Shown here in pieces: positions 3,603-60,452 of a DNA stretch of 64,000 nt. The position numbers were made by a program, and so were the translations under genes. Origin of the DNA: Pyrodictiaceae archaeon (lineage in GTDB: Archaea; Thermoproteota; Thermoprotei_A; Sulfolobales; Pyrodictiaceae); NCBI GenBank assembly GCA_027036135.1, contig JALVSY010000007.1, positions 996,880-1,060,879 of the forward strand. Reading direction: 5' to 3'. The notes under the pieces were generated by a model. It was not told where the DNA came from. It made no database searches and saw only the letters and a list, made by a program, of their open reading frames with translations. The stretch's first letter is position 1; each line of letters begins with the position of its first letter.

Positions 3603-5139
3603 TATTAATCACCTTAATTTGTTTTTCGTTATAGTATTTTCTTATAGTGTTTATAAACGTTGTATATTGACATTTTATACATTTTTCAATAATATCTTTT
3701 AATTCAATTATATCATGAATTATTTCATTTTTACTAATATATAACATTTTACTAATTGTATCTAATCTATAACTTTTGTTTACTAATTCCTCAACGGAGT
3801 CAGGAAGAAGTTTATCAACCTCCTTATTCCATTCAGCTATCTTTAGCAATTCTATTCTATCGCTAGCAGGTTTAATCTCATAGAGTTCAACCACTCTTCT
3901 CGTATATGTACCATCTTGGTTTTTTACCCGCTTGAGTACAACTATGCTCCATATGAGTTGGAGAAAGCTCTCACCAATATTTATTGGAGCTGCTTTCAAG
4001 CGCTGAATGACTGATAAGGCGCTATCGGCGTGAAATGTTGTTAATGCCCCATGCCCGCTTGCTGCTGCGTGAATCAGTGTTCTTGCTTCCTCGCCCCGAA
4101 CTTCTCCTATTACAAAGTAATCAGGTCTTCGGCGAAGGGCAAACTTTGTGAGATCAAGTAAGTTAATGCTTTCTCCGCTATTAGTTTCAGAGATTATTCT
4201 TGTAACTAGGCTGTCCCAGTTATCGTGGTATCTCAGATTTATTTCCGGCGTATCTTCTATTGTCACTACTCTATCAGTTGGAGGTATTAGCATTAGTAGT
4301 GCTTGGAGCAGAGTCGTTTTTCCCGAAGCCGTTGGTCCTGCTATGATGACGGTTGCCCTTAGTCTTAGCAGCAGCCATAGGTAAGCCATATAAAGGGATG
4401 ATATCAGCTTGTTCCTTACTAAATCGCTAGGTGTAAGGGGTTCCTCTAAATGCTTCCTAATAACTAGTGACGTTCCGAACCTAGTTATTTCGTTTGAAAA
4501 AGTAGCTGCAATACGATTCCCATCTGGTAGTGGCGCCTCAATATAAGGATGAGCTATGCTTAGCTCCTTCCCAGCTATACGGGAAAGCCTAATAACTATA
4601 TCATCAAGATCCTTGTCATCGAGGAACACGTTTGTTTTAATCCAGGTATAGTTATAGAGTCTGTGAAATATGAGTGCATAAGAACCTGGTTTATTAACCA
4701 CTATTTCCTCTATATACTCGTCCCTAGTCAGTGGATAAATTTTGCCATAACCGCTCAAAACTTTGTTTAAGAAATAGACTATCTTAGTCACATTTGATGA
4801 TAATAAGCGATAATCTAATTGATACTTTGAGCTTAGTTCTTTGAGTCTTTTAGGGTTATATATCTCGGATAAGTCTATATTTGTTGAAAAAATGATGTCT
4901 ATGAGTTTGGTTACTTCTTCGATTAATCGTTCATTCTTATCCATTTCGGGCTCGTCGATGCAATATAAGAGTTCGTCTTTATCATTTATTCCAATTGTTA
5001 CCTCAACTAGACCACTTGTTGTGTATTTCTTTAAGATTTTATTTATTTTTTCATTACATTTAGTTGCTTGGAAAACTTTTTGTACGTGTAGTTTTTCATA
5101 CATATTTGTATCCCTTCGCGGATAATGTGCCCTAGTCAT
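3589..5139 (-). CDS. Type IV pilus/secretion ATPase (GspE/VirB11 superfamily)
   Basis: 516-residue cytoplasmic hexameric ATPase that powers pilin assembly. The N-terminal domain covers roughly residues 1-240. Walker A is GPTASGKTTLL near 268; the Asp box is IEDTPEINL near 295; the Walker B region is YFVIGEVRGEEART near 340; the His box is LTTFHAD near 363. It lies between the pilin gene (ATGA overlap at 5136-5139) and the TadC-like gene (14-bp overlap), giving the minimal pilus operon. Could serve adhesive pili or another filament; the absence of fla/arl accessory genes argues against an archaellum. Confidence 0.9.
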   Translation of the reverse strand: MTRAHYPRRDTNMYEKLHVQKVFQATKCNEKINKILKKYTTSGLVEVTIGINDKDELLYCIDEPEMDKNERLIEEVTKLIDIIFSTNIDLSEIYNPKRLKELSSKYQLDYRLLSSNVTKIVYFLNKVLSGYGKIYPLTRDEYIEEIVVNKPGSYALIFHRLYNYTWIKTNVFLDDKDLDDIVIRLSRIAGKELSIAHPYIEAPLPDGNRIAATFSNEITRFGTSLVIRKHLEEPLTPSDLVRNKLISSLYMAYLWLLLRLRATVIIAGPTASGKTTLLQALLMLIPPTDRVVTIEDTPEINLRYHDNWDSLVTRIISETNSGESINLLDLTKFALRRRPDYFVIGEVRGEEARTLIHAAASGHGALTTFHADSALSVIQRLKAAPINIGESFLQLIWSIVVLKRVKNQDGTYTRRVVELYEIKPASDRIELLKIAEWNKEVDKLLPDSVEELVNKSYRLDTISKMLYISKNEIIHDIIELKDIIEKCIKCQYTTFINTIRKYYNEKQIKVINNENK

Positions 5140-5534
5140 GCTATCTCTATCGGACTTGTTGAGAATGTCTTCCCCGTAGAGTCTTTGTAGTTAAGTACTA
5201 TGTAGATCGGTGTGCATGTCTCGTTAGTGAGGGGCAAGGATAGTGTCTTTGATTGTCCTACGCCTATAGTTGTTGTAGTGTTTATTGTCAGCTCTGTATT
5301 ATTTTTGCAAATTATGTTAGCAGATTGTATAGTTATGGTTTTTGGCCCTGAGTTATAAATTGTCACAAATATTCTTTTTATAGAGTCCATGTATTGTGCG
5401 TTATTGACGTATACCATGGGTTTTGTGGTCATGCCCTTAACTGTTCCTATGAAGTACTGATAAACTATTATTCCGGCAGCTACGGTAGCCATTATCAATA
5501 TGACTGCTGACAATATGGGAGAGAGGGCTCTCAT
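5136..5534 (-). CDS. Archaeal type IV pilin-like protein
   Basis: 132 residues from ATG 5532-5534, chosen because MRALSPILSAVILIMATV is the usual archaeal pilin N-terminus and GGTGA lies just upstream; an open frame continues upstream to 5639 but that extension looks non-coding. The short basic leader MRA would be cut by a prepilin peptidase, leaving the hydrophobic helix that packs in the filament core. The rest is a small beta-rich domain with several N-x-S/T sequons (INTTTT, NET) and two cysteines that may form a disulfide. First gene of the pilin-ATPase-TadC operon. A suitable peptidase is encoded at 17196-17894. Confidence 0.75.
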   Translation of the reverse strand: MRALSPILSAVILIMATVAAGIIVYQYFIGTVKGMTTKPMVYVNNAQYMDSIKRIFVTIYNSGPKTITIQSANIICKNNTELTINTTTTIGVGQSKTLSLPLTNETCTPIYIVLNYKDSTGKTFSTSPIEIA

Positions 5535-5693
5535 ACTCTTTTCACCGTTATTCTTAGTTTTTATGTTAAGATGTAGAAACATAATTGATAATGATAACAT
5601 ATTTAACCTTAGAAACTGTTTCGGCAGGTTGATATCCATGTATGTTACTAGTTTTAAGGGAATAATTGCTAGAAAGGATGAGCAGGGGGCTGT

Positions 5694-7289
5694 ATGAGCA
5701 AGGTGCAGGAGCCGCTAAGAGAAAAATACCGCAGTATGACGCCATCTCAGTTCTTCTACGAGCATAGAGAGCTTGCAGGCTTTGGCAGTCCTTCTCGTGC
5801 TCTCTACCAAACTATCCGCGAGCTCGTAGAAAACGCGCTTGACGCAACCGATGTCTATGGTATTATGCCCCGCATAGTGATAGTTGTAGAGAAGCTCGAG
5901 GAGCGCCAGGATTTCTATCGCATAACCGTTGAGGATAACGGTATTGGCATTAACCCCAAGTATGTCCCACAAGCTTTTGGCCAGGTTCTCTTCAGCTCTA
6001 AGTATAAACTAAGACAGGCTAGGGGGCGATTCGGTCTAGGCGCAAAAATGGCCATACTCTATGGCCAGATTAAGACGGGAAAACCTGTCGAGGTATATAC
6101 CTCTCCTATAGGATTTACAAAGATATATTATTATAAGCTAAAGATAGATATCGAGCGCAATAAACCGATCATACTAAGTTACGCGGAACACGATAATAAG
6201 ACTCTATGGCATGGAACACGCATAAGTGTTGTCATAGAGGGGGATTGGTCAAGAGCGAGAAGCCGAGTATACGAGTACATAAAACGCACCGCAATAGCTA
6301 CACCATACGCCGATATAGTATTCATAGACCCCGAAGGCAATATGATAACCTATTGGCATAGTATAGAAAAACTACCACGCCCACCAAAAGAGGTAAAACC
6401 CCACCCTCACGGCGTTGATATCGAGCAGTTAAAGAGACTCATACGTGATGTAAAAGCAAAAACACTCATAGAGTTCCTTGTCTCCGCGTTCCAGGGCGTA
6501 GGCAAGAGGTCAGCGGAGGCTTTCCTAAAATGGGCAGGTCTTGACCCAGGTCTGGACCCTCATAGGCTGAATGATTCTCTACTAGGTGAGTTAGCACGCA
6601 AGCTCAGAGAGTACCCGAAGTTCCGGCCGCCATCAGCTGAGTCGCTATCACCTTTTGGGCCGGAGATAATAGAGGCTGGTCTAAGAGCGATACTGCACCC
6701 AGAGTTCGTTGTAGCTGTCTCGCGTAGGCCAAAGGCCTATGAGGGGCATCCATTCATAATTGAGGTCGGGATAGCCTATGGTGGAGAGATTCCTCTTTCC
6801 AATGAACCTATACTGTTAAGATATGCTAATAAGATACCCTTACTCTATGATGAGAAATCCGATGTAGCTTGGAAGGTTATTGATCCTCGAAGCTTTAATT
6901 GGAAAGACTACATGGTGGTTTTTCCAGCACCAGTAGCGGTGCTAACACATATAGCTAGCACAAAGGTACCTTATAAGGGAGTAGGTAAGGAAAGTGTAGC
7001 AGATGTACCCGAGATAGAACATGAGTTGCGTAACGCGCTCCGAGAAGCAGCAAGAAAGCTGCGACTCTACCTCTTACAAAAGAAGAGAGAAGAGGAGGCA
7101 AAGAGAAGAGTTATCACATTCGTAAAATACACGCCAGAGGTAGCTAAGGGGCTAGCAACTATACTCGGTGATATAGACGAGAAAACAGTGCAAGAAATGC
7201 TCCTTAGTGCAATGAAGCGCCGTCTAAGACTCGATGACGAGGAGTTCGCAAAACTAGTACAAGGGCTAGAGATAAGTATAGAAGAGTAA
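5694..7289 (+). CDS. top6B: DNA topoisomerase VI subunit B
   Basis: 531 residues, family length. This is the ATPase subunit of the type IIB topoisomerase that relaxes and decatenates DNA in archaea. The GHKL ATP-binding motifs are clear: ELVENALDATD near residues 42-52, DNGIG near 83, and GRFGLGAKMA near 105-114. A helix-two-turn-helix region (about 230-310, with FQGVGKRSAEAFL) and the transducer domain follow, with a switch lysine expected in the second half. Located 15 bp upstream of top6A, the usual order. ATG start at 5694 follows AGGGGG. Confidence 0.97.
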   Translation: MSKVQEPLREKYRSMTPSQFFYEHRELAGFGSPSRALYQTIRELVENALDATDVYGIMPRIVIVVEKLEERQDFYRITVEDNGIGINPKYVPQAFGQVLFSSKYKLRQARGRFGLGAKMAILYGQIKTGKPVEVYTSPIGFTKIYYYKLKIDIERNKPIILSYAEHDNKTLWHGTRISVVIEGDWSRARSRVYEYIKRTAIATPYADIVFIDPEGNMITYWHSIEKLPRPPKEVKPHPHGVDIEQLKRLIRDVKAKTLIEFLVSAFQGVGKRSAEAFLKWAGLDPGLDPHRLNDSLLGELARKLREYPKFRPPSAESLSPFGPEIIEAGLRAILHPEFVVAVSRRPKAYEGHPFIIEVGIAYGGEIPLSNEPILLRYANKIPLLYDEKSDVAWKVIDPRSFNWKDYMVVFPAPVAVLTHIASTKVPYKGVGKESVADVPEIEHELRNALREAARKLRLYLLQKKREEEAKRRVITFVKYTPEVAKGLATILGDIDEKTVQEMLLSAMKRRLRLDDEEFAKLVQGLEISIEE

Positions 7290-7304
7290 GAGGGGTGAGC
7301 AGTA

Positions 7305-8471
7305 ATGAGTATCGAGGAATACATCGATAAGGCTGATATAGAGGCGCGCAAAAGAGCACTCCGGGTATTCCGGGAGAGATTTAGAGAAATACTTGAGCAG
7401 ATAAAGAGAGGCGAGAACCCTACAATAATGCTACCTAAGCGCACACTGGCAAACACAATATACGATGAGAAGAGGAAACTTCTCCTACTAGGCCCGGAGA
7501 AGCTTAGCAGAAGCTTCTTCGACCTCCACGAGTCAAAGAAGTTCATGCAAACACTTCTAATGGCGAGAATAATCTATGAAGCACTTGAGAGAAATGAGTA
7601 TCCAACTATCCGTGACCTGTACTACAGAGGAAAACACACGATAGTATATCGGGAACCAGGAGGCCGCAAGCACGAAGAAAACACATGGGATGAACAAAGA
7701 GAATCAGACTCTGTGATAAGAGACATAGAGGTCTTCACCGGGCTACTTCGTGAAGAAATGCTCATACTCAGCAAGGAGAAAGGAAAAGTCGTAGGCAATA
7801 TGAGGATACGAAGCGGAGGAGACGTAATAGACCTAAGCAAGATGGGACATGGAGCCTATGCTATAGAGCCGACTCCTGACCTTATAGAATTCGTCGATGT
7901 AGATGCCGAGTACGTGCTAGTAGTAGAGAAAGACGCAGTATTCCAACAGCTTCACAGAATAGGCTTCTGGAGAAAACACAAGGCAATACTAATAACAAGC
8001 GCTGGGCAGCCAGACAGGGCAACGAGGCGATTCGTTAGAAGACTAAACGAGGAACTTGGATTACCGGTATACATACTGACTGATGCTGATCCTTACGGAT
8101 GGTATATATACAGTGTGTTCAAGATTGGATCAATAACTCTAAGCTATGAAAGCGAGCGCCTAGCAACACCAAATGCAAGGTTCATAGGCGTAAGCATGAC
8201 AGATATATTTGGCTACAAGAGGAAAAAGCCATACTTAACAGAGCAAGAGCGCCGAAACTACATAATCAAAGCAAAGGACGCAGACATAAAGAGAGCCTAC
8301 GAGTTAAGGAACTATAAATGGTTCCAGACAAAGAAGTGGAAGATAGAGATAGACATATTCCTTGAGAGAAAAGCTAAGCTAGAGATAGAAGCCTTAACAA
8401 GCAAAGGCCTAAGATTCCTTGCAGACAAATACCTACCAGAGAAAATTGAAACAGGGGACTGGATAGAATAA
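7305..8471 (+). CDS. top6A: DNA topoisomerase VI subunit A (Spo11-like)
   Basis: 388 residues. DNA-cleaving subunit that forms the transient 5'-phosphotyrosyl bond. The active-site tyrosine lies in TIRDLYYRGKH (Tyr106/107) in the CAP domain. The Toprim domain follows, with the acidic E at VLVVEKDAVF near 208 and the DxD-type motif LTDADPYGWYIY near 258. GGGTGAGCA precedes the ATG. Together with the upstream B subunit it makes the complete A2B2 enzyme. Confidence 0.97.
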   Translation: MSIEEYIDKADIEARKRALRVFRERFREILEQIKRGENPTIMLPKRTLANTIYDEKRKLLLLGPEKLSRSFFDLHESKKFMQTLLMARIIYEALERNEYPTIRDLYYRGKHTIVYREPGGRKHEENTWDEQRESDSVIRDIEVFTGLLREEMLILSKEKGKVVGNMRIRSGGDVIDLSKMGHGAYAIEPTPDLIEFVDVDAEYVLVVEKDAVFQQLHRIGFWRKHKAILITSAGQPDRATRRFVRRLNEELGLPVYILTDADPYGWYIYSVFKIGSITLSYESERLATPNARFIGVSMTDIFGYKRKKPYLTEQERRNYIIKAKDADIKRAYELRNYKWFQTKKWKIEIDIFLERKAKLEIEALTSKGLRFLADKYLPEKIETGDWIE

Positions 8472-50305: not shown

Positions 50306-51667
50306 ATGAAGGAGCGCTCCCCGGTCTGTGTCTATGAGTGGCGCTACGGAAGCCAGGAGATGAGGCAGGTATTCTCCCGCGACAACATGGTTGAGACATA
50401 TAAGCGTGTTGAGCTAGCCCTATTAGAGAGCCTCGTAGAGCTAGGCGTTGCTCCTCCAAAGGCTCTTGACGAAGCGAAGAAGGCAGCCTCCAAGCTAAGC
50501 GCGATACAAGTCTATGATGAGGAGAAAAAGAGGGGCCATGACATAGCATCACTAGTATTCCTCATGGGTAGGCTCGGCGGCGAAGAAGCTGCCCGCTGGA
50601 TACACTTCGGCGCAACAAGCAACGATGTAATCGATACCGCCTGGGCACTAGTTATTCGGGACGCACTTAGTATTGTTAAGAAGAGGCTAAGACTCCTAAT
50701 AGAGAAGCTAGTAGTCCTTGCTGAGAAGCATAGATACACCGTCATGCCCGGGCGCACTCATGGCCAGCACGCAACACCGATAACACTCGGGTTCAAGGTA
50801 GCGAACTACGTCTACGAGCTAGCTCGTAGCTACGAGAGAATATGTGACGCGGAGAAGAGGATTCTCCGCGTAAAGCTAGGTGGAGCAACAGGAACCATGG
50901 CTAGCTGGAATGGCTACGGCCTCGAGCTCCGCAAAGCCTTCGCCTCAAAACTCGGCCTAGAACCACACATTATATCAACACAGGTTGCGCCCCGCGACGG
51001 CTTCGCAGAGCTAGCAGCAGTACTAGCAATACTAGCTAGTACTCTTGATCGCTTCGCCGTAGAGATTAGAGAACTAGCGAGACCAGAGATCCACGAGCTA
51101 TGGGAGGAAAGGGGCAGTGCTATTGGGAGTAGCGCGATGCCCCAGAAAGCGAACCCCGTCACAGCTGAGAGGATAAGCGGCCTAGCAAGGATAGCTAGGA
51201 GCCTCGTGCACGTCTTCTTAGAAAACATGGTGCTCTGGCACGAGAGAGACTTAACGAATAGTAGCTCCGAGCGAGTAGCAATACCACATCTCTTCCTAAC
51301 AATAGACCAAATACTCATCGATGCTAATAATCTTGTTGATAGGCTACGCGTAGACAGAGACAAGATGAAGAGAAACTTGTACCTAACAATGGCCACAGCA
51401 ACCACGGAGGCGTTAATGAACCTCCTCATACAGCGAGCAAGACTGAGCCGCGAGGAGGCATACAGTCTAGCACGCAAAGCAGCGCAAAAAGCACTACAGG
51501 ATCAAAAACCATTATGGATCGCGGCAAGCGAGCTACCCGAGATAAGAAAGCACCTGGAAGACGTCGATCTAGAGGAGGTACTACGCCCAGAGAACTACAT
51601 CGGTGAAGCACCACGCCTAGTAAGCGAGGCAACAAGCTACGCAAGAGCCGTGCTCAAGGAGTGCTAG
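50306..51667 (+). CDS. purB: Adenylosuccinate lyase
   Basis: 453 residues, fumarase/aspartase superfamily. Catalyses SAICAR to AICAR and adenylosuccinate to AMP. The signature loop SSAMPQKANPVTAE near 272-285 is intact, with the serine as catalytic base; HFGATSNDVIDTAWAL near 93 and MPGRTHGQHATPIT near 148 carry the histidine. ATG preceded by GGTGA. Ends 4 bp inside the convergent regulator gene. Confidence 0.97.
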   Translation: MKERSPVCVYEWRYGSQEMRQVFSRDNMVETYKRVELALLESLVELGVAPPKALDEAKKAASKLSAIQVYDEEKKRGHDIASLVFLMGRLGGEEAARWIHFGATSNDVIDTAWALVIRDALSIVKKRLRLLIEKLVVLAEKHRYTVMPGRTHGQHATPITLGFKVANYVYELARSYERICDAEKRILRVKLGGATGTMASWNGYGLELRKAFASKLGLEPHIISTQVAPRDGFAELAAVLAILASTLDRFAVEIRELARPEIHELWEERGSAIGSSAMPQKANPVTAERISGLARIARSLVHVFLENMVLWHERDLTNSSSERVAIPHLFLTIDQILIDANNLVDRLRVDRDKMKRNLYLTMATATTEALMNLLIQRARLSREEAYSLARKAAQKALQDQKPLWIAASELPEIRKHLEDVDLEEVLRPENYIGEAPRLVSEATSYARAVLKEC

Positions 51668-52377
51668 GATAGCTCCAAAAGGGCATGGACATCGCTTATA
51701 CCAAGTCTCTCTAAGCGCTTCCTCCACTCAGAACCGATAGCTATAACGACGACCGCTCCGACGACCTTGCCTCCTGCTCTCTTAACGGCTTTTGCAAGAG
51801 CCTCGAATGTGGCACCAGTACGAGCAAAGTCATCGACGAGTAGCACCTTGGATCCCTCAGACAGAGAGTCTCTGGGCACGTAGAACACCTTTACACCGAA
51901 AGGTTGCTCGCCGCCTTCGCTCCTAATGTACTCCCGGCCAGGGCTACCAGGATGACGCCTAGCCAGTACAAGGCGTGCATCAAGAGCCAGCGCTACCAGT
52001 GTGGCCAGGGGTACACCTATAGTCTCAGCTGATAGGACAGTGTCAACCCTTTCCTTATACTTGTACTCAGTCCATGCCGAGACTAGGCGCAGTACAAGAG
52101 GATCAAGCATAACGTACTCTAGGTCAGCTATGCTTCTCGTGGCTCTTAGACGCGAAGCTATCAATGATGCGAGATTTATTCTACTAAGGATAGTATTGAG
52201 GATTACTCGTGCCTGTGATGGGCTTGGTATTCTAGCACCTGTCGCGTACTGGGCTAGGACGTTCCTTGATATACCGAGCAGTTTCTCGAGCTCAGCATAG
52301 CTCATATCCCGGTGTAGTAGTCTTAGGATCTCTACTACGCTTAGCTGAAGCCGAAGTGTGTCAATCTTCTTAGCCAT
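51664..52377 (-). CDS. HTH-PRTase transcription regulator (GfcR/PurR-like)
   Basis: 237 residues. Helix-turn-helix at 20-60 (MSYAELEKLLGISRNVLAQYATGARIPSP), then a type I phosphoribosyltransferase domain with the PRPP loop VLLVDDFARTGATFEAL near 177-193. These orotate-PRTase-like proteins are regulators that sense PRPP or nucleotides; haloarchaeal members control sugar genes, while this one sits between purB and purC, facing purC across 155 bp with a perfect palindrome. It most likely controls the purine genes and itself. Confidence 0.85.
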   Translation of the reverse strand: MAKKIDTLRLQLSVVEILRLLHRDMSYAELEKLLGISRNVLAQYATGARIPSPSQARVILNTILSRINLASLIASRLRATRSIADLEYVMLDPLVLRLVSAWTEYKYKERVDTVLSAETIGVPLATLVALALDARLVLARRHPGSPGREYIRSEGGEQPFGVKVFYVPRDSLSEGSKVLLVDDFARTGATFEALAKAVKRAGGKVVGAVVVIAIGSEWRKRLERLGISDVHALLELS

Positions 52378-54205: not shown

Positions 54206-56377
54206 ATGCCGTTAGCGCCCGAGGAGATAGAATACGTGAGAAAGGCCCTAGGCAGAGAGCCAAGCCGAGAAGAGCTAGCAATACTTGAAGCCGAGTGGAG
54301 CGAACACTGCAGCTATAAGAGCACAAAGAAGCTCCTAAGAACGCTCCCAACAAAGGCTCCATGGGTGCTAGTAGAGCCTGGCCGAGACGCAGGCGCAATA
54401 AGGCTCTTCGATGACGTGGCCCTAGTAGCCCGCATAGAGAGCCACAATCATCCATCAGCTATTGATCCATACAATGGAGCGGCTACTGGTATCGGAGGAA
54501 TAATACGCGATGTGCTCAGCCTAGGCGCTAAGCCAGTACTCCTGCTCGATTCACTGTACCTTGGCTGCCTAGATGATGACTATGCTCGGTGGCTAGCTAA
54601 GGGAATAGTAAAGGGGATAAGCGACTACGGTAACAGGGTAGGTGTCCCAACAGCAGCTGGTCAAACCTGGTTCGCAAAGACATATAACAAGCAACCCCTG
54701 GTCAATGTCGCCTGCATAGGCCTTGTACACCCCGGCAAGATTCTTGAGGGAAGAGTAGAGCCCGGCGACATCATAGTACTTGCTGGCAACACTACGGGGC
54801 GAGACGGTCTCCTGGGAAGTAGCTTTGCTAGTAAGCCTCTCAGCGGCAACGAGGAAGACCTAGCAGCTATACAAGTTGGAAACCCATTCCTCGAGAAACT
54901 ACTAATAGATGCTCTCCAAGAAGCTTTCAAGAAACACGTACTAAGACACGTGAAGGATCTAGGCGGTGGAGGCCTAGCAACAGCTATTATTGAGACGGCT
55001 GCGCAAAACAATGTAGGATTCCGCGTCCACCTAGACAGGGTGCACCTAAGAGAGCACGATCTCTCAGCAGTAGAGATAATAGTGTCTGAGAGCCAGGAAC
55101 GAATGCTCCTTGTTCCATACCGTGATAAGCTCGGGGAACTATTAGAGATCCTTGATAGATATGGTGTAGAGTACAGCGTAATAGGCTACTTCACGAGGAG
55201 CAAGAGAGCAGTATTCCTTTACAGGGGCATACCCGTCGCCGATCTTCCTGTAGAACTAGCAGTAAACCCACCAACTCCGCGTAGGGAGATTAACCCTCTT
55301 CCCCCGCCTCCACCTCTCCCAAAGCTTGAGGCCGATATCGTTGATACGTTGATAAGAGTTCTACGAAGTCCCAGGGTAGGCTCTAAGGCATGGATATACG
55401 AGAGCTATGACTGGGGAGTCGGTGGCAGAACGATAGGTGTACCGGGAGCCTATGACGCAGCGGTCATATGGCTGAGAGATGGAACGCTCCGAGGCTTCGC
55501 GGCGGCTCTTCACGGTAATCCACGCTACACGAGACTTGACCCGTTCCGTGGAGCTGCTCTTAGCCTCGCAGAAGCGTATCGCAAGGTAGCGAGTGTAGGC
55601 GCCGAGCCCCTGGCTGTCCTCGATAACGTGAACTCGGGTAACCCAGAGAAGCCGTGGCAACATGCATACACGGCTGCGATGATAGAGGGCTTGGCATGGA
55701 TGGCCCGGGGCCTCGGGCTCCCTGTCATAGGAGGAAATGTGAGTCTTTATAACGAGGACTCCGAGGGCAACATGATAGACCCCGTTACCAGCGTCCTAGT
55801 AGTTGGCCGCGTAAGTGATGTATCTAAAGTGTTCCCTAACTCGCTGCAGGGTTGCGGCCCAGTTCTATTAGCAGGTATTACTGAGCCAGAGCTAGGCGGT
55901 AGCGAGGTGGCAGAAATAATCCTAGGTAAACCGGTGGGCCGCCCTCCTAAGCCGAGGCCATCCATGGAGAAGCGCGTAGCGCAGCTCGCAAAACTGCTTG
56001 CCCAAGAGCAGCTAGCTTGTAGCGCTCATAGCGTCGGTATTGGCGGCGTACTAGTCGCATTAGCGAAGATGACTATACGTGGGCGCCGAGGCCTCGAGGT
56101 CTCTCTCAAAACAGTCTGTGAGAAGTGTACAGCGTTTGAGGCAGCATTCTCGGAGACTCCTGCCAGAATACTCTTTGAGGTAAAGGAGGACAAGCTAGAT
56201 CTTGTTTATGAGTATGCAGCCAAGCTAGGTGTCCCAGTAAAAATAGTGGCTATGCCAATAAAACAAGAAAAGCTAGTAATCAAGATAAACAACTACATGC
56301 ATCAAATCAGCATTGATACCCTCGTAGAGGCCTATACATGGGCCGAGAAAAACCTTGTCAGACCCAAGGGCGACTAG
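54206..56377 (+). CDS. purL: FGAM synthase, PurL subunit
   Basis: 723 residues from ATG 54206, chosen because GGTGAT lies eight bases upstream; open frame extends to 54116 inside purQ, and GTG 54194 is also possible. Characteristic EWSEHCSYKSTKKLL near 30, ATP-site HNHPSAIDPYNGAATGIGG near 85, DLGGGGLATA near 255, and the second half repeat with GGNVSLYNED near 510. Small-type PurL that needs PurS and PurQ. Makes FGAM from FGAR. Confidence 0.96.
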   Translation: MPLAPEEIEYVRKALGREPSREELAILEAEWSEHCSYKSTKKLLRTLPTKAPWVLVEPGRDAGAIRLFDDVALVARIESHNHPSAIDPYNGAATGIGGIIRDVLSLGAKPVLLLDSLYLGCLDDDYARWLAKGIVKGISDYGNRVGVPTAAGQTWFAKTYNKQPLVNVACIGLVHPGKILEGRVEPGDIIVLAGNTTGRDGLLGSSFASKPLSGNEEDLAAIQVGNPFLEKLLIDALQEAFKKHVLRHVKDLGGGGLATAIIETAAQNNVGFRVHLDRVHLREHDLSAVEIIVSESQERMLLVPYRDKLGELLEILDRYGVEYSVIGYFTRSKRAVFLYRGIPVADLPVELAVNPPTPRREINPLPPPPPLPKLEADIVDTLIRVLRSPRVGSKAWIYESYDWGVGGRTIGVPGAYDAAVIWLRDGTLRGFAAALHGNPRYTRLDPFRGAALSLAEAYRKVASVGAEPLAVLDNVNSGNPEKPWQHAYTAAMIEGLAWMARGLGLPVIGGNVSLYNEDSEGNMIDPVTSVLVVGRVSDVSKVFPNSLQGCGPVLLAGITEPELGGSEVAEIILGKPVGRPPKPRPSMEKRVAQLAKLLAQEQLACSAHSVGIGGVLVALAKMTIRGRRGLEVSLKTVCEKCTAFEAAFSETPARILFEVKEDKLDLVYEYAAKLGVPVKIVAMPIKQEKLVIKINNYMHQISIDTLVEAYTWAEKNLVRPKGD

Positions 56378-56379
56378 CT

Positions 56380-57741
56380 ATGTGCGGCATAGCTGCCTGG
56401 ATGGGCGAGCTCCCCTACTATAATCTCTACCAGCTTCTCCTAGAACAACAGCACAGAGGACATGATGCAGCCGGCATAGCGATACGATATCGTAGTGATC
56501 TAAGAGTTTTTGGCGGCGGAGGTTATGTATGGAAGGCATTACCTGAGCCAGAAAGCATTAGCCTTGAGTCCAAGCTGGGTATAGGCCACGTAAGGTACTC
56601 AACTAGCGGCGGTTATGACGAGGTATATCAACCAGTCCTATCAAATAACAGGACCATAGCCCTCGCGTTTAACGGTAACATATACAACTATGTGGAGGCA
56701 AGCAAAGAGATTCTAGGAGACAGGAAAAGCTATGACTGGGATGCAGCAGCCTTTGCGGACCTAATCGAGCACTACTATGGTGAGACCCGTAGCCTCATCG
56801 AAGCAGTAAGAGAGACAGCTAAGCTGGTCAAGGGAGCCTATAGTCTCGTTGTCATCAGCTCGAAGGGGGAACTAGTTGCGGCAAGAGACCCCCATGGTAT
56901 AAGGCCTCTCGCAGTTAGCATTAATGACGAAGTAGTGGCAGTTGCCTCTGAGACCGCTGCTCTAGGAGCACTGGGTCTCAATTGGGCTGAGCTACCTAGA
57001 TCCGGGGCACTATATTGCCAGGGGTCTCCTAGAAATTGCTATACAGATAGTATTGCTTCGGCGAAGCCTCCGCGGCCGTGTGTGTTCGAGTACATATACT
57101 TCCTTCGCCCAGACAGCGTCTTTGAGGGAGTGGTTGCCCACGAAGCTCGTAAGAGAATGGGGATGCTTCTTGCCAGGATAGATGATGTAGTAGTTGACCT
57201 TGTTGTCCCGGTACCCGATAGTGGTAGGAGCGCTGCAATAGGTTACGCGATCGAGAAAGGGGTACCACTAGACGAGGGTCTCTATCGTAACCGGTTTGTT
57301 GGTAGAGCATTCATATCCTCACCATCAATTAGGAAGAGACGCTTACTGAGAAAGTTCTCGCCAATACCAAGCACTATCCGTGGCAGGCGTGTGGCAATAG
57401 TTGATGACTCAATAGTGCGTGGAGATACCTCGCGCTGGATAACAAGGCTAGCCCGCGCAAGTGGTGCAAGAGAAGTTCACTTCCGTAGCGCTTCCCCTCC
57501 GCTCCGCTATCCATGCTTCTTCGGAATAGATATCCCGAGTAGAGACGAGCTAATAGCCAGCAAGCACAGCGTTGAGGAGATCCGTAGAATTATCGGAGCC
57601 GACACGCTCCTATACAATACCGTTGAGAACCTCGTGAAAGCAATAGGCAAGCCGGTTTGCCTAGGATGTTTTACTTCGAAGTACCCATATCCTCTCCACT
57701 TACAACTCCTTGAGCAAAGATTCGTCTCAGGCAGAAGGTGA
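56380..57741 (+). CDS. purF: Amidophosphoribosyltransferase
   Basis: 453 residues. First committed step of purine synthesis: PRPP plus glutamine to phosphoribosylamine. The glutaminase nucleophile is Cys2 after the start (MCGIAAWMG); HVRYSTSGG and FNGNIYNYVEA support the Ntn domain. PRPP loop VAIVDDSIVRGDTSRWI near 348 is canonical. No propeptide: ATG 56380 directly precedes the cysteine. C-terminal CLGCF and FTSKYPYPLH typical. Starts 2 bp after purL. Confidence 0.96.
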   Translation: MCGIAAWMGELPYYNLYQLLLEQQHRGHDAAGIAIRYRSDLRVFGGGGYVWKALPEPESISLESKLGIGHVRYSTSGGYDEVYQPVLSNNRTIALAFNGNIYNYVEASKEILGDRKSYDWDAAAFADLIEHYYGETRSLIEAVRETAKLVKGAYSLVVISSKGELVAARDPHGIRPLAVSINDEVVAVASETAALGALGLNWAELPRSGALYCQGSPRNCYTDSIASAKPPRPCVFEYIYFLRPDSVFEGVVAHEARKRMGMLLARIDDVVVDLVVPVPDSGRSAAIGYAIEKGVPLDEGLYRNRFVGRAFISSPSIRKRRLLRKFSPIPSTIRGRRVAIVDDSIVRGDTSRWITRLARASGAREVHFRSASPPLRYPCFFGIDIPSRDELIASKHSVEEIRRIIGADTLLYNTVENLVKAIGKPVCLGCFTSKYPYPLHLQLLEQRFVSGRR

Positions 57742-57750
57742 TAAGGAGGG

Positions 57751-58959
57751 ATGGGTCTCTTACTGACATACTTCTATGAGATAGACCAAGACGCCGGGAA
57801 ATACGCCTACTATGGAGTAATGGGTCTACGTCATAGAGGATATAGAGTTGTTTACGCTGTTCTAGGCCCCAATGGGTTTGAGATAGGGGAAGCGAATCCT
57901 TGGAGCGAGTGGGGACTTCCAAGCGGCTACGCAGTTATTGCTGGAATATCTCCGACAGCTAGGCTGGCTACATCGAGGCATAATGGTAGACGCGTAGTAG
58001 CGATAATCGATGGGCCCTGCCCCGTAGAGAAGCTTGCAGAAACAATGGCTAAGAATGATCTACGCGATGTAGCTGAGGAGCTAGTAAGCGGCGATGAGTA
58101 TCGGTGGTGCGCTGCAATAGCTCTCCGCAGCGATGGAGCGTTTATCGCTGGCCGTGGAAAGGAGAGCAGAAGGCCACTAAGCATAGGAGGCTATGGCTTT
58201 GAAGCATTATATGCAGCTACGGAGACAGCACCAATAATCCTCATGGGTGGCTCCCCGAGATACGATCTTGGCGGCGGAGAGGCTGTCTATGGTGATCGCT
58301 ACAGCCTTGACCGTGTACATGTACCGGGACGGCGGAGAACCTCCCTCTTCGAGTACGTCTACCTAGCTAGACCCGATAGCTTGGTTGACGGGGTTAGTGT
58401 CTATGCCTTTAGGAGAGAGATGGGTAGGCAACTAGCCCTTATACATGACGCTGACGTGGATGTAGTGGTTGGTGTGCCTGAGACAGCAATACCCTATGCA
58501 ATAGGATACGCTGAGGCAAAACACGTGAGGTTGGAACAAGGATTTGTCTCAACGCTTGGCCGTGTACGTACAGCCTTAGCGCCAGTAAGCCTAGAGGAGC
58601 GCCTTATGATGCTCAGCCTCAAGCTTAACCCGGTGCCAGGGATATTTGAGGATAAGTCAATAGCCATAGTGGATGATAGCGTCGTTACTGGTTTGACTCT
58701 GAAGACCGTTATCCAGCGACTAAGACGCCTCCATGGTGCAAGGGAGGTACACGTAGCCGTCTCTAGTCCAAGGATAATATCTAGATGTAGGTTCGGTGTA
58801 CAATTAGTTGATGAGAGTAGCCTTATAGCGCGATACCTGTCCGACGAGGATGTCTCACGCGTCCTTGATGCTGATAGCCTAGTCTGGCTTCCCTTGAGGG
58901 AAGCTGTTCGCTTCCTCAGAGAGCATGGAGTAGAGCCCTGTACGGAGTGTATGAGGTGA
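57751..58959 (+). CDS. PurF paralogue with inactive glutaminase domain
   Basis: 402 residues, same two-domain plan as PurF. It begins MGLLLTYFYEIDQDAG, so the nucleophile Cys is gone, and the Ntn-domain glutamine-binding elements are absent (RYSTSGG region reads LATSRHNGR; FNGNIYN region reads AIIDGPCPV). The GLRHRGY motif remains. PRPP loop reads IAIVDDSVVTGLTLKTV against VDDSIVRGDTS in PurF, keeping the acidic pair but losing the R and first T. C-terminus PCTECMR resembles the PurF end. AGGAGG precedes ATG. Likely a regulatory or structural partner of PurF, or an ammonia-dependent form. Confidence 0.85.
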   Translation: MGLLLTYFYEIDQDAGKYAYYGVMGLRHRGYRVVYAVLGPNGFEIGEANPWSEWGLPSGYAVIAGISPTARLATSRHNGRRVVAIIDGPCPVEKLAETMAKNDLRDVAEELVSGDEYRWCAAIALRSDGAFIAGRGKESRRPLSIGGYGFEALYAATETAPIILMGGSPRYDLGGGEAVYGDRYSLDRVHVPGRRRTSLFEYVYLARPDSLVDGVSVYAFRREMGRQLALIHDADVDVVVGVPETAIPYAIGYAEAKHVRLEQGFVSTLGRVRTALAPVSLEERLMMLSLKLNPVPGIFEDKSIAIVDDSVVTGLTLKTVIQRLRRLHGAREVHVAVSSPRIISRCRFGVQLVDESSLIARYLSDEDVSRVLDADSLVWLPLREAVRFLREHGVEPCTECMR

Positions 58960-60452
58960 GACCTTCCTTGCCCCGCGTCTTGCTTGTGGGAAGTGGTGCT
59001 AGGGAGCACGCAATCGCCCTCCTCCTAGCGGGTAGCCCAGAGGAGCCAGAGATAGCAGCAGTAATGGATCACTTTAACCCAGGCATTGCCGAGGTAGCTG
59101 AGAAGACTGGAGGCAGGGTATACTTAGCTAAGACAACTAGTGCTGATAGCGTCCTATTAGTAGCGGAGGAGTACTCGCCAGACCTGGTAGTCGTAGGGCC
59201 CGAGGAGCCCCTCTTCGCTGGAATTGCTAACAAGCTACGGGAGAAGGGATTCACCGTCTTTGGCCCGGACAAGGAGCTTGCCAGAATAGAGAAAGACAAG
59301 GTGTTCGCAAGAAGCCTTATGTGGAGACACGGTATCCCGGGAAGACTGCGTTACAAAGCCTTCCGCGACCCAGAGGAAGCATCTAAGTATGCACGCGTTG
59401 CAGGAGACGTTGTCGTCAAGCCTGCTCGCCAAGCTGGAGGAAGTGGTGTAAGAATATTCGCTGAGCCATACGAGCACCTCTCCAAGCTAGCAAGGAGCGT
59501 TGCATCAGAGTACGTCAGCGCAGTGGCGGAGAAAGTCAAGGCAAAGTACAGCGACATGGATTACTTAGTCTTAGTAGAGGAGCGCGTAGACGGCGTAGAG
59601 TACACGGTAATGACCGTTACAGACGGCGACAGCGTCGTAGCACTACCTGTTGTACAAGATCATCCACACGTCTATCCCTTCGACATAGGCCCTGAGACTG
59701 GCGGGATGGGGGCAATAGCCGGGCCTTGCTGGACTCTCCCATTTATAACGGAGGAAGAGTACAGTGAGAGCATAGAAATCATTAGAAAGACCATTGATGC
59801 GTTACGTAGTGAGATAGGCAAGCCATATGTTGGCGCACTTAGCGGCCAGATGATGCTCACTGGTTTCTGGGGCCCGACACTCATAGAGTATTATTCGCGA
59901 TTCGGTGACCCAGAGATATCAGCGCTACTATTCCTCCTAGAGAGTAGCTTCCTGGAGCTCTTGGATAGGGCTGCTTCCCGTAGACTAGCGGGATATAAGC
60001 TCTCAATAAAGTGCGACCAATACGTCGTTGTAAAAGCAGTTGCGCCCTCCGGTTATCCTCTCGAGAGAGCTAGGGCAAGAGGTCACCCGGTCGCAGTAGA
60101 TAAAGACATTGTTGAGAAGCTTGGCTGCGAGCTACTCTACGGCGGCGTTGATAAGAATAGTACCGGAGACCTGGTCTCAACAGGCTCTAGGCTCGCAGAG
60201 ATAGTATGTCCTAGCGACAAGGGCTTCGAGGATGCATCAAAGCGAGCTGAGAAAGCCATAGCTGGCATCTGGCTTAGGGATGGCCATCCGCTTATCCATC
60301 GCTGGGACATAGGCTCGCGAGTCCTCCTCGAGCAAAGAGTTGCTATGGCTCGCCGGGCCCGGATATCCTATACTCGTCGCCGCGAAAAGGGACTCATGGC
60401 TATTTATGACTGGGTTCCTGGTCAAGGCTTAGTCAAATACAACTATGAGTGA
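58956..60452 (+). CDS. purD: GAR synthetase
   Basis: 498 residues from GTG 58956, overlapping the previous stop (GTGA), with GGAGTG upstream. VLLVGSGAREHAIALLL at 8-24 is the PurD signature; ATP-grasp with VVKPARQAGGSGVRIF near 155 and VDGVEYTVMTVTDG; PETGGMGAIAG near 245. Ligates glycine to phosphoribosylamine. Somewhat longer than bacterial PurD (about 430), with the extra residues mostly in the C-terminal half. Confidence 0.95.
   Translation: MRPSLPRVLLVGSGAREHAIALLLAGSPEEPEIAAVMDHFNPGIAEVAEKTGGRVYLAKTTSADSVLLVAEEYSPDLVVVGPEEPLFAGIANKLREKGFTVFGPDKELARIEKDKVFARSLMWRHGIPGRLRYKAFRDPEEASKYARVAGDVVVKPARQAGGSGVRIFAEPYEHLSKLARSVASEYVSAVAEKVKAKYSDMDYLVLVEERVDGVEYTVMTVTDGDSVVALPVVQDHPHVYPFDIGPETGGMGAIAGPCWTLPFITEEEYSESIEIIRKTIDALRSEIGKPYVGALSGQMMLTGFWGPTLIEYYSRFGDPEISALLFLLESSFLELLDRAASRRLAGYKLSIKCDQYVVVKAVAPSGYPLERARARGHPVAVDKDIVEKLGCELLYGGVDKNSTGDLVSTGSRLAEIVCPSDKGFEDASKRAEKAIAGIWLRDGHPLIHRWDIGSRVLLEQRVAMARRARISYTRRREKGLMAIYDWVPGQGLVKYNYE

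Follow-up and report, generated by a model that had tools for sequence, protein, structure and literature searches.

A PurF paralogue with a degenerate glutaminase centre and a conserved PRPP site in the purine operon of a Pyrodictiaceae archaeon

The window, a stretch of 64,000 nucleotides from contig JALVSY010000007.1 of a Pyrodictiaceae archaeon, contains directly after purF a second gene of this family, which is PurF', an ancient paralogue of amidophosphoribosyltransferase (GPATase). The alignments indicate that its glutaminase is dead, as it appears to be throughout the PurF' family, and that the phosphoribosyltransferase (PRTase) domain retains its site for PRPP, Mg and pyrophosphate, together with most positions of the Fe-S ligands.

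Proteins of this kind have been known since 2011, when Brown et al. (PMC3261824) found two PurF-like proteins, forming two clusters, in each crenarchaeon studied, and gave the name PurF' to the one devoid of the cysteine, present once in every crenarchaeon with purF. They remarked that it is linked to purine genes and suggested an ammonia-dependent activity as a testable possibility, so the NH3-using transferase considered in an earlier, sequence-only reading of the window is not a new idea. No biochemical or regulatory explanation was established in that paper (PMC3261824), and experiments on PurF' published after 2011 were not found in a literature search from which subscription journals were largely excluded. 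The window protein, with no Cys1, its place in a cluster of its own and its location near purF and other purine genes, corresponds to the PurF' of Brown et al., and nothing separates the two.

The homology of the window protein to PurF is beyond chance, since it is matched by the TIGR01134 (purF) profile with an E-value of 1.5e-43; the score misses the cut-off, which the neighbouring PurF passes (Table 1). PF00156 scores 25.5 bits on PurF', with the gathering cut-off at 26.3, and just 11.3 bits on the canonical PurF, while phmmer matches the GPATases of B. subtilis and E. coli to residues 123-401. The AlphaFold2 monomer, based on 31 aligned rows, has a pLDDT of 92 and a pTM of 0.91 for the whole chain including the N-terminal domain. 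Its best PDB match in Foldseek is 1ao0 (E 2.8e-31, TM 0.81 by query length), and the GPATases are followed by other Ntn amidotransferases, among them the beta-lactam and carbapenam synthetases. A complete GPATase fold is thus predicted with confidence, and according to the model the dead glutaminase domain is retained as a folded scaffold.

The gene and the purine operon

The purine cluster of the window, a complete operon, comprises, in this order, purB, purC, a purS-like ORF, purQ, purL, purF, purF', purD, purT, purM, and purP. The tandem position of the paralogue, pointed out in the sequence-only reading, was borne out by its ORF and profile match; the purF stop and the purF' start are 9 bp apart, and the purD ORF shares 13 bases with the 3' end of purF'. 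The ribosome site of purF', regarded in that reading as good, is not so, as only 1 nt separates the GGAGG at 57745-57749 from the ATG and the Shine-Dalgarno spacing is therefore poor. The true start of purF is the MCG at 56380, which exposes the Cys, the mechanically called ORF having begun too early, at 56338. Divergently from purC, on the minus strand (51664-52377), lies a gene for a 237-aa protein with an adenine-PRTase/PurR-like domain (PRK08558 156.6 bits, below the cut-off of 184; purR_Bsub 9.8e-15), a candidate PRPP-sensing regulator of the operon.

Table 1. Positions of PurF', its neighbours and its main sequence features in the window
Feature	Position	Strand	Evidence or remark
canonical purF (P0002)	56380..57741	+	TIGR01134 373.1 bits; full glutaminase and PRTase signatures
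purF' (P0001), 402 aa	57751..58959	+	TIGR01134 149.8 bits, cut-off 350; PurF' clade in trees
degenerate Ntn-type glutaminase domain, ca. residues 1-195	57751..58335	+	alignments; mean pLDDT of 10-residue blocks 84-97
PRTase domain, ca. residues 196-402	58336..58956	+	phmmer to 1ao0 3.8e-39, residues 123-401
Ser198 replacing the first [4Fe-4S] ligand (B. subtilis Cys236)	58342..58344	+	alignments
flexible-loop Arg273 (by offset, E. coli Arg332)	58567..58569	+	invariant, 90/90 PurF'
Lys291 (E. coli Lys349, contacts cPRPP, PMC7953260)	58621..58623	+	invariant, 90/90 PurF'
PRPP loop VDDSVVTGLTL, residues 307-317	58669..58701	+	D308, D309, G314, T316 invariant in alignment A1
Cys346, at the [4Fe-4S] ligand position of B. 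subtilis Cys382	58786..58788	+	90/90 PurF'
Cys397 and Cys400, remaining two ligand positions	58939..58950	+	90/90 PurF'
purD, consumes PRA made by PurF	58947..60452	+	TIGR00877 318.6 bits

Glutaminase centre, PRPP site and Fe-S ligands

In the PurF' of the window the initiator Met stands in place of Cys1, and Arg73 and Tyr74 are missing, so the absence of the nucleophile and the arginine reported from the sequence alone was confirmed by the alignments. The loss of the NG oxyanion elements, claimed in the same reading, concerns the Asn, replaced by Asp (DG), and the block of residues that follows NG (106-123 in B. subtilis), which is deleted, but not Gly102, which is still present. Throughout PurF' the Asn of this pair is mostly Asp and the Gly is found in 66 of 90 sequences, the window protein included. 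The deletion of the block is universal in the window's order (60/60), and several deep PurF' retain a part of the region. Cys1 occurs in a single PurF' out of 90, the Jordarchaeum sequence, and Arg73 in none (0/90); the full glutaminase signature is present in 78/81 paired PurF and in 0/90 PurF', these and the other residue counts being counts of non-independent events.

The PRTase signature comprises nine residues, R245, D247, R311, K328, D345, D346, S347, G351, and T353 of the B. subtilis enzyme, of which the last seven are R332, K349, D366, D367, S368, G372, and T374 in E. coli (in this domain the B. subtilis number plus 21 gives the E. coli one); the numbers follow a B. subtilis reference row of which the first nine residues are provisional. 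The signature is intact in 89/90 PurF', including that of the window, in 64/81 paired PurF and in 9/16 single PurF. As counted by eye on the tree, departures from it arose in about six separate lineages of PurF and in one of PurF'. These changes do not amount to evidence for a loss of activity of PurF, since the stand-alone PurF of PurF-only lineages is changed likewise. In three Thermoproteota loci (L201, L222, L190) PurF is devoid of Lys349 and a part of the flexible loop; in the first two of them the N-terminal domain of PurF' is shortened and the gene lies beside that of PurF in convergent orientation.

The PRPP loop of PurF', described in the sequence-only reading as altered, is not degenerate. 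The window protein has D366, D367, S368, G372, and T374 (E. coli numbering) without exception, and D308, D309, G314, and T316 are found in 90/90 PurF' and Ser310 in 89/90. The change of Arg371 to Thr does not amount to damage of the loop, as Thr occupies this position in half of PurF' (50 of 90, with Arg in 31, the deep branches retaining Arg) and in type I PRTases of the ordinary kind. K349, T333, T374, and R371 of the E. coli enzyme contact cPRPP in simulations and R73 binds the glutamine analogue (PMC7953260), and in the plant enzyme the Asp-Asp-Ser of the loop is required for activity (PMC7056826). Tyr242, probably equivalent to the Tyr that contacts PRPP, is kept in 89/90 PurF'. The flexible loop of PurF' has a pattern of its own, unlike that of PurF, with T306 in 83/90, G307 in 68/90, N330 in 86/90, and P331 in 81/90 sequences, and with Ala/Met and mostly Leu/Ile replacing Phe334-Ile335, a pair (nearly) invariant in PurF.

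The cysteine pair noticed at the C-terminus is there, but it is in fact the end of a set of [4Fe-4S] ligands of the B. subtilis class, of which the window protein has three of four Cys. All four are present in 82/90 PurF', and the Ser at the Cys236 position in the remaining 8/90, all in the window's clade.

In the Jordarchaeum PurF' (L074) INTERMEDIATE Cys1, His70, the Asn-Gly pair, and Asp127 are kept and Ser-Pro replaces Arg73-Tyr74. This protein, known from one bin only, may be an intermediate, in which case the loss of the glutamine-binding Arg would have preceded that of the nucleophile, as Cys1 is there and Arg73 is not. Its PurF partner (the locus spans 4537-7329) has Ser for the Gly of the PRPP loop (VRSTT). 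In two genomes of one genus, G151 and G132, the canonical PurF itself (L063 from 7107, a locus identical with L073, and L064 from 7059) carries Gly at the positions of both Cys1 and Arg73, and Asp at that of Tyr74. Both loci also carry PurF', and as both proteins look glutaminase-dead, an ammonia-driven purine synthesis is suggested for this genus.

Distribution, descent and selection

In the class to which the window genome belongs, 81 of 229 genomes have a match, and in each of the 53 high-quality genomes among these the matches lie in two or more places, PurF and PurF'. The absence of PurF' from close relatives, one of the grounds on which its function could be doubted, was found in four congeners (G056, G069, G123, G144), and is accounted for by their having neither PurF nor PurL, which indicates that the purine pathway is gone there, within a single genus. 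Across the phylum, in a set of 397 genomes, many families carry PurF'; others have one PurF and no PurF'. In most PurF' families at least one member was read, and in nearly all of those PurF was found beside PurF'; wherever the surroundings could be read, PurF' was never without PurF. At one locus (L200) there is no PurF within the 10 kb taken around PurF', and two sequences (L219, L220) end too early to tell whether PurF accompanies it. PurF' was also found in metagenome bins named Jordarchaeum, Theionarchaea, Methanomethylicota, and Bathyarchaeota. Matches of P0001 in "phage" records, which are unannotated, are most likely host purF.

The phylogeny and residue mapping of both paralogues, proposed with the sequence-only reading, place PurF' in one clade, supported by 100/100 in the careful tree of the PRTase domain, made with a set of close relatives that includes the window protein (P_L002), and sister to all archaeal PurF; a quick tree was also made, and the root of the PurF/PurF' tree is not firmly placed. 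The branching orders of PurF' and PurF are largely parallel, which indicates that the pair was inherited together. Since PurF-only lineages (e.g. G230, G401, G280, G392) are nested among those bearing PurF', the latter was probably lost several times.

At 78 of the 91 loci with both genes, a number that includes a few duplicates, purF is followed by purF' on one strand, mostly at a distance of 0-10 bp. At nine loci purF' lies 5-6 kb upstream of purF in the same orientation and the same pur operon, and at four the two are adjacent and inverted. In L227 and L228 purF' stands between purC and purD, and purF lies farther downstream in that operon. In G018 (ca. 960 kb) and family f7 purF and purF' are far apart and both are retained.

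For pairs with a usable dS, dN/dS amounts to 0.01-0.10 for PurF' and to 0.04-0.12 for PurF of the same genomes, single values being rough, as several dS are near saturation. PurF' is thus under purifying selection roughly like that of PurF. The ratio is far from the value near 1 named beforehand as a sign of relaxed selection, and the view of the gene as a functional paralogue that lost its glutaminase is upheld by it. No broken frames were found among the places listed in the genome searches for P0001.

Possible roles of PurF' and comparison with known systems

The explanation that we favour, giving it an even chance, is that PurF' is an accessory PRPP-binding subunit of a PurF/PurF' hetero-oligomer, which we infer on the model of the GPATase homotetramer. 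In such a complex PurF would obtain ammonia from glutamine and synthesize PRA, while PurF' would bind PRPP, and perhaps purine nucleotides too, in its own intact site, either adding PRTase capacity or setting the activity of the complex as an allosteric sensor. What tips the balance is that PurF survives without PurF' but PurF' does not survive without PurF, which suits a PurF-dependent subunit. On the other hand, lineages devoid of PurF' retain PurF, which is independent of it there, parallel trees can be obtained from the co-inheritance of operon neighbours alone, the complete PRPP site fits an independent enzyme equally well, and in G018 and f7 the two genes are distant from each other. A particular form of the complex, a GPATase with divided labour in which PurF' would form a part of the PRA from ammonia that PurF sets free, seems unlikely. 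PurF would then be kept for its glutaminase (78/81), with its own PRTase site drifting in several lineages (64/81), and PurF' for its PRTase site (89/90). The options of PRPP binding, a regulatory role, and NH3 use, listed in the sequence-only reading, all appear to remain live.

The main rival of the PurF-dependent subunit, rather unlikely in our estimate, is the one put forward by Brown et al. (2011), in which PurF' works on its own as an ammonia-dependent PRPP aminotransferase producing PRA without glutamine. Its PRPP and pyrophosphate contacts are complete, E. coli PurF devoid of Cys1 can still work with NH3 (as cited in PMC3261824), the replacement of Phe334-Ile335 may give ammonia from the solvent access to the site, and purine synthesis may use ammonia where PurF too has lost Cys1, Arg73, and Tyr74 (L063, L064). 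However, such an enzyme should sometimes survive alone, and PurF' never replaces PurF; moreover, its linkage to purF is retained, as is the N-terminal domain, which is predicted to fold. It is also unlikely that PurF' transfers the phosphoribosyl group to a different acceptor, or serves as a carrier handing unstable PRA to PurD at high temperature. The conserved flexible-loop pattern around its PRPP site would fit a different chemistry, of the sort taken up by the beta-lactam and carbapenam synthetases, glutaminase-dead relatives among the amidotransferases, and purD adjoins purF' in the window, L227, and L228; yet no orphan reaction points to PurF', and purF' is linked to purF more than to purD. 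The predicted growth temperature is higher in PurF' families (median 90 against 72, p = 0.018, ignoring kinship), but several PurF-only families look thermophilic too, and thermophily as the driver of PurF' was set aside, the trend being weak and uncorrected for descent.

The missing IMP cyclohydrolase of Crenarchaeota is a very improbable identity for PurF'. PurO has an Ntn-like fold, and both PurO (PF07826) and PurH (PF01808) are missing from nearly all PurF'-bearing genomes tested; they are, however, equally missing in PurF-only Thermoproteota, e.g. G230 and G401, and G499 carries PurF' together with PurH, so that this reading was rejected for want of any anticorrelation. In addition, the conserved pyrophosphate contacts point to PRPP and not to FAICAR. 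Hardly any credence can be given to a decaying duplicate without function, for which the lost glutaminase residues would speak. The dN/dS values rule out a pseudogene or relaxed selection, the PRTase site is intact in 89/90 PurF', the clade is conserved across the phylum, and frames are unbroken among the places listed.

Beyond the work of Brown et al. (2011), PurF' is reported here from other families of Thermoproteota and from records named Jordarchaeum, Theionarchaea, and Bathyarchaeota. Likewise new are the PRPP site, strictly kept as judged from the alignments, the putative Cys1-bearing intermediate, the single clade with repeated losses, the dN/dS of PurF', and its confidently predicted fold. 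PurF catalyzes the committed, feedback-controlled step of purine synthesis, and a glutaminase-dead second copy of it is retained in a large part of an archaeal phylum. Together with the dependence of PurF' on PurF and the putative intermediate that bears Cys1, the strictly kept PRPP site makes for a testable choice between an extra catalytic site, a sensor, and an ammonia enzyme.

With the canonical GPATases (B. subtilis 1ao0, E. coli 1ecf) PurF' shares the two-domain fold and the PRPP and pyrophosphate loops, and with those of the B. subtilis class also the positions of the Fe-S ligands. It differs from them in the loss of the nucleophile and the glutamine-binding Arg73, in the changed Phe334-Ile335, and, in the window's order, in the deletion of block 106-123. 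The beta-lactam and carbapenam synthetases, derived from AsnB, are likewise descendants of class II amidotransferases with a glutaminase-dead Ntn domain, but their second domain is different and they took on a new reaction, as PurF' is not known to have done. In HisZ-HisG and in the PRPP synthetase-associated proteins an inactive homologue is the regulatory subunit of a PRPP enzyme, HisZ not being a paralogue of its partner HisG; in contrast to these systems, the PurF/PurF' complex is a proposed one. In humans the PurF enzyme PPAT is controlled by NUDT5 without use of the latter's own catalysis (PMC12853130), a partner that, unlike PurF', belongs to an unrelated protein family.
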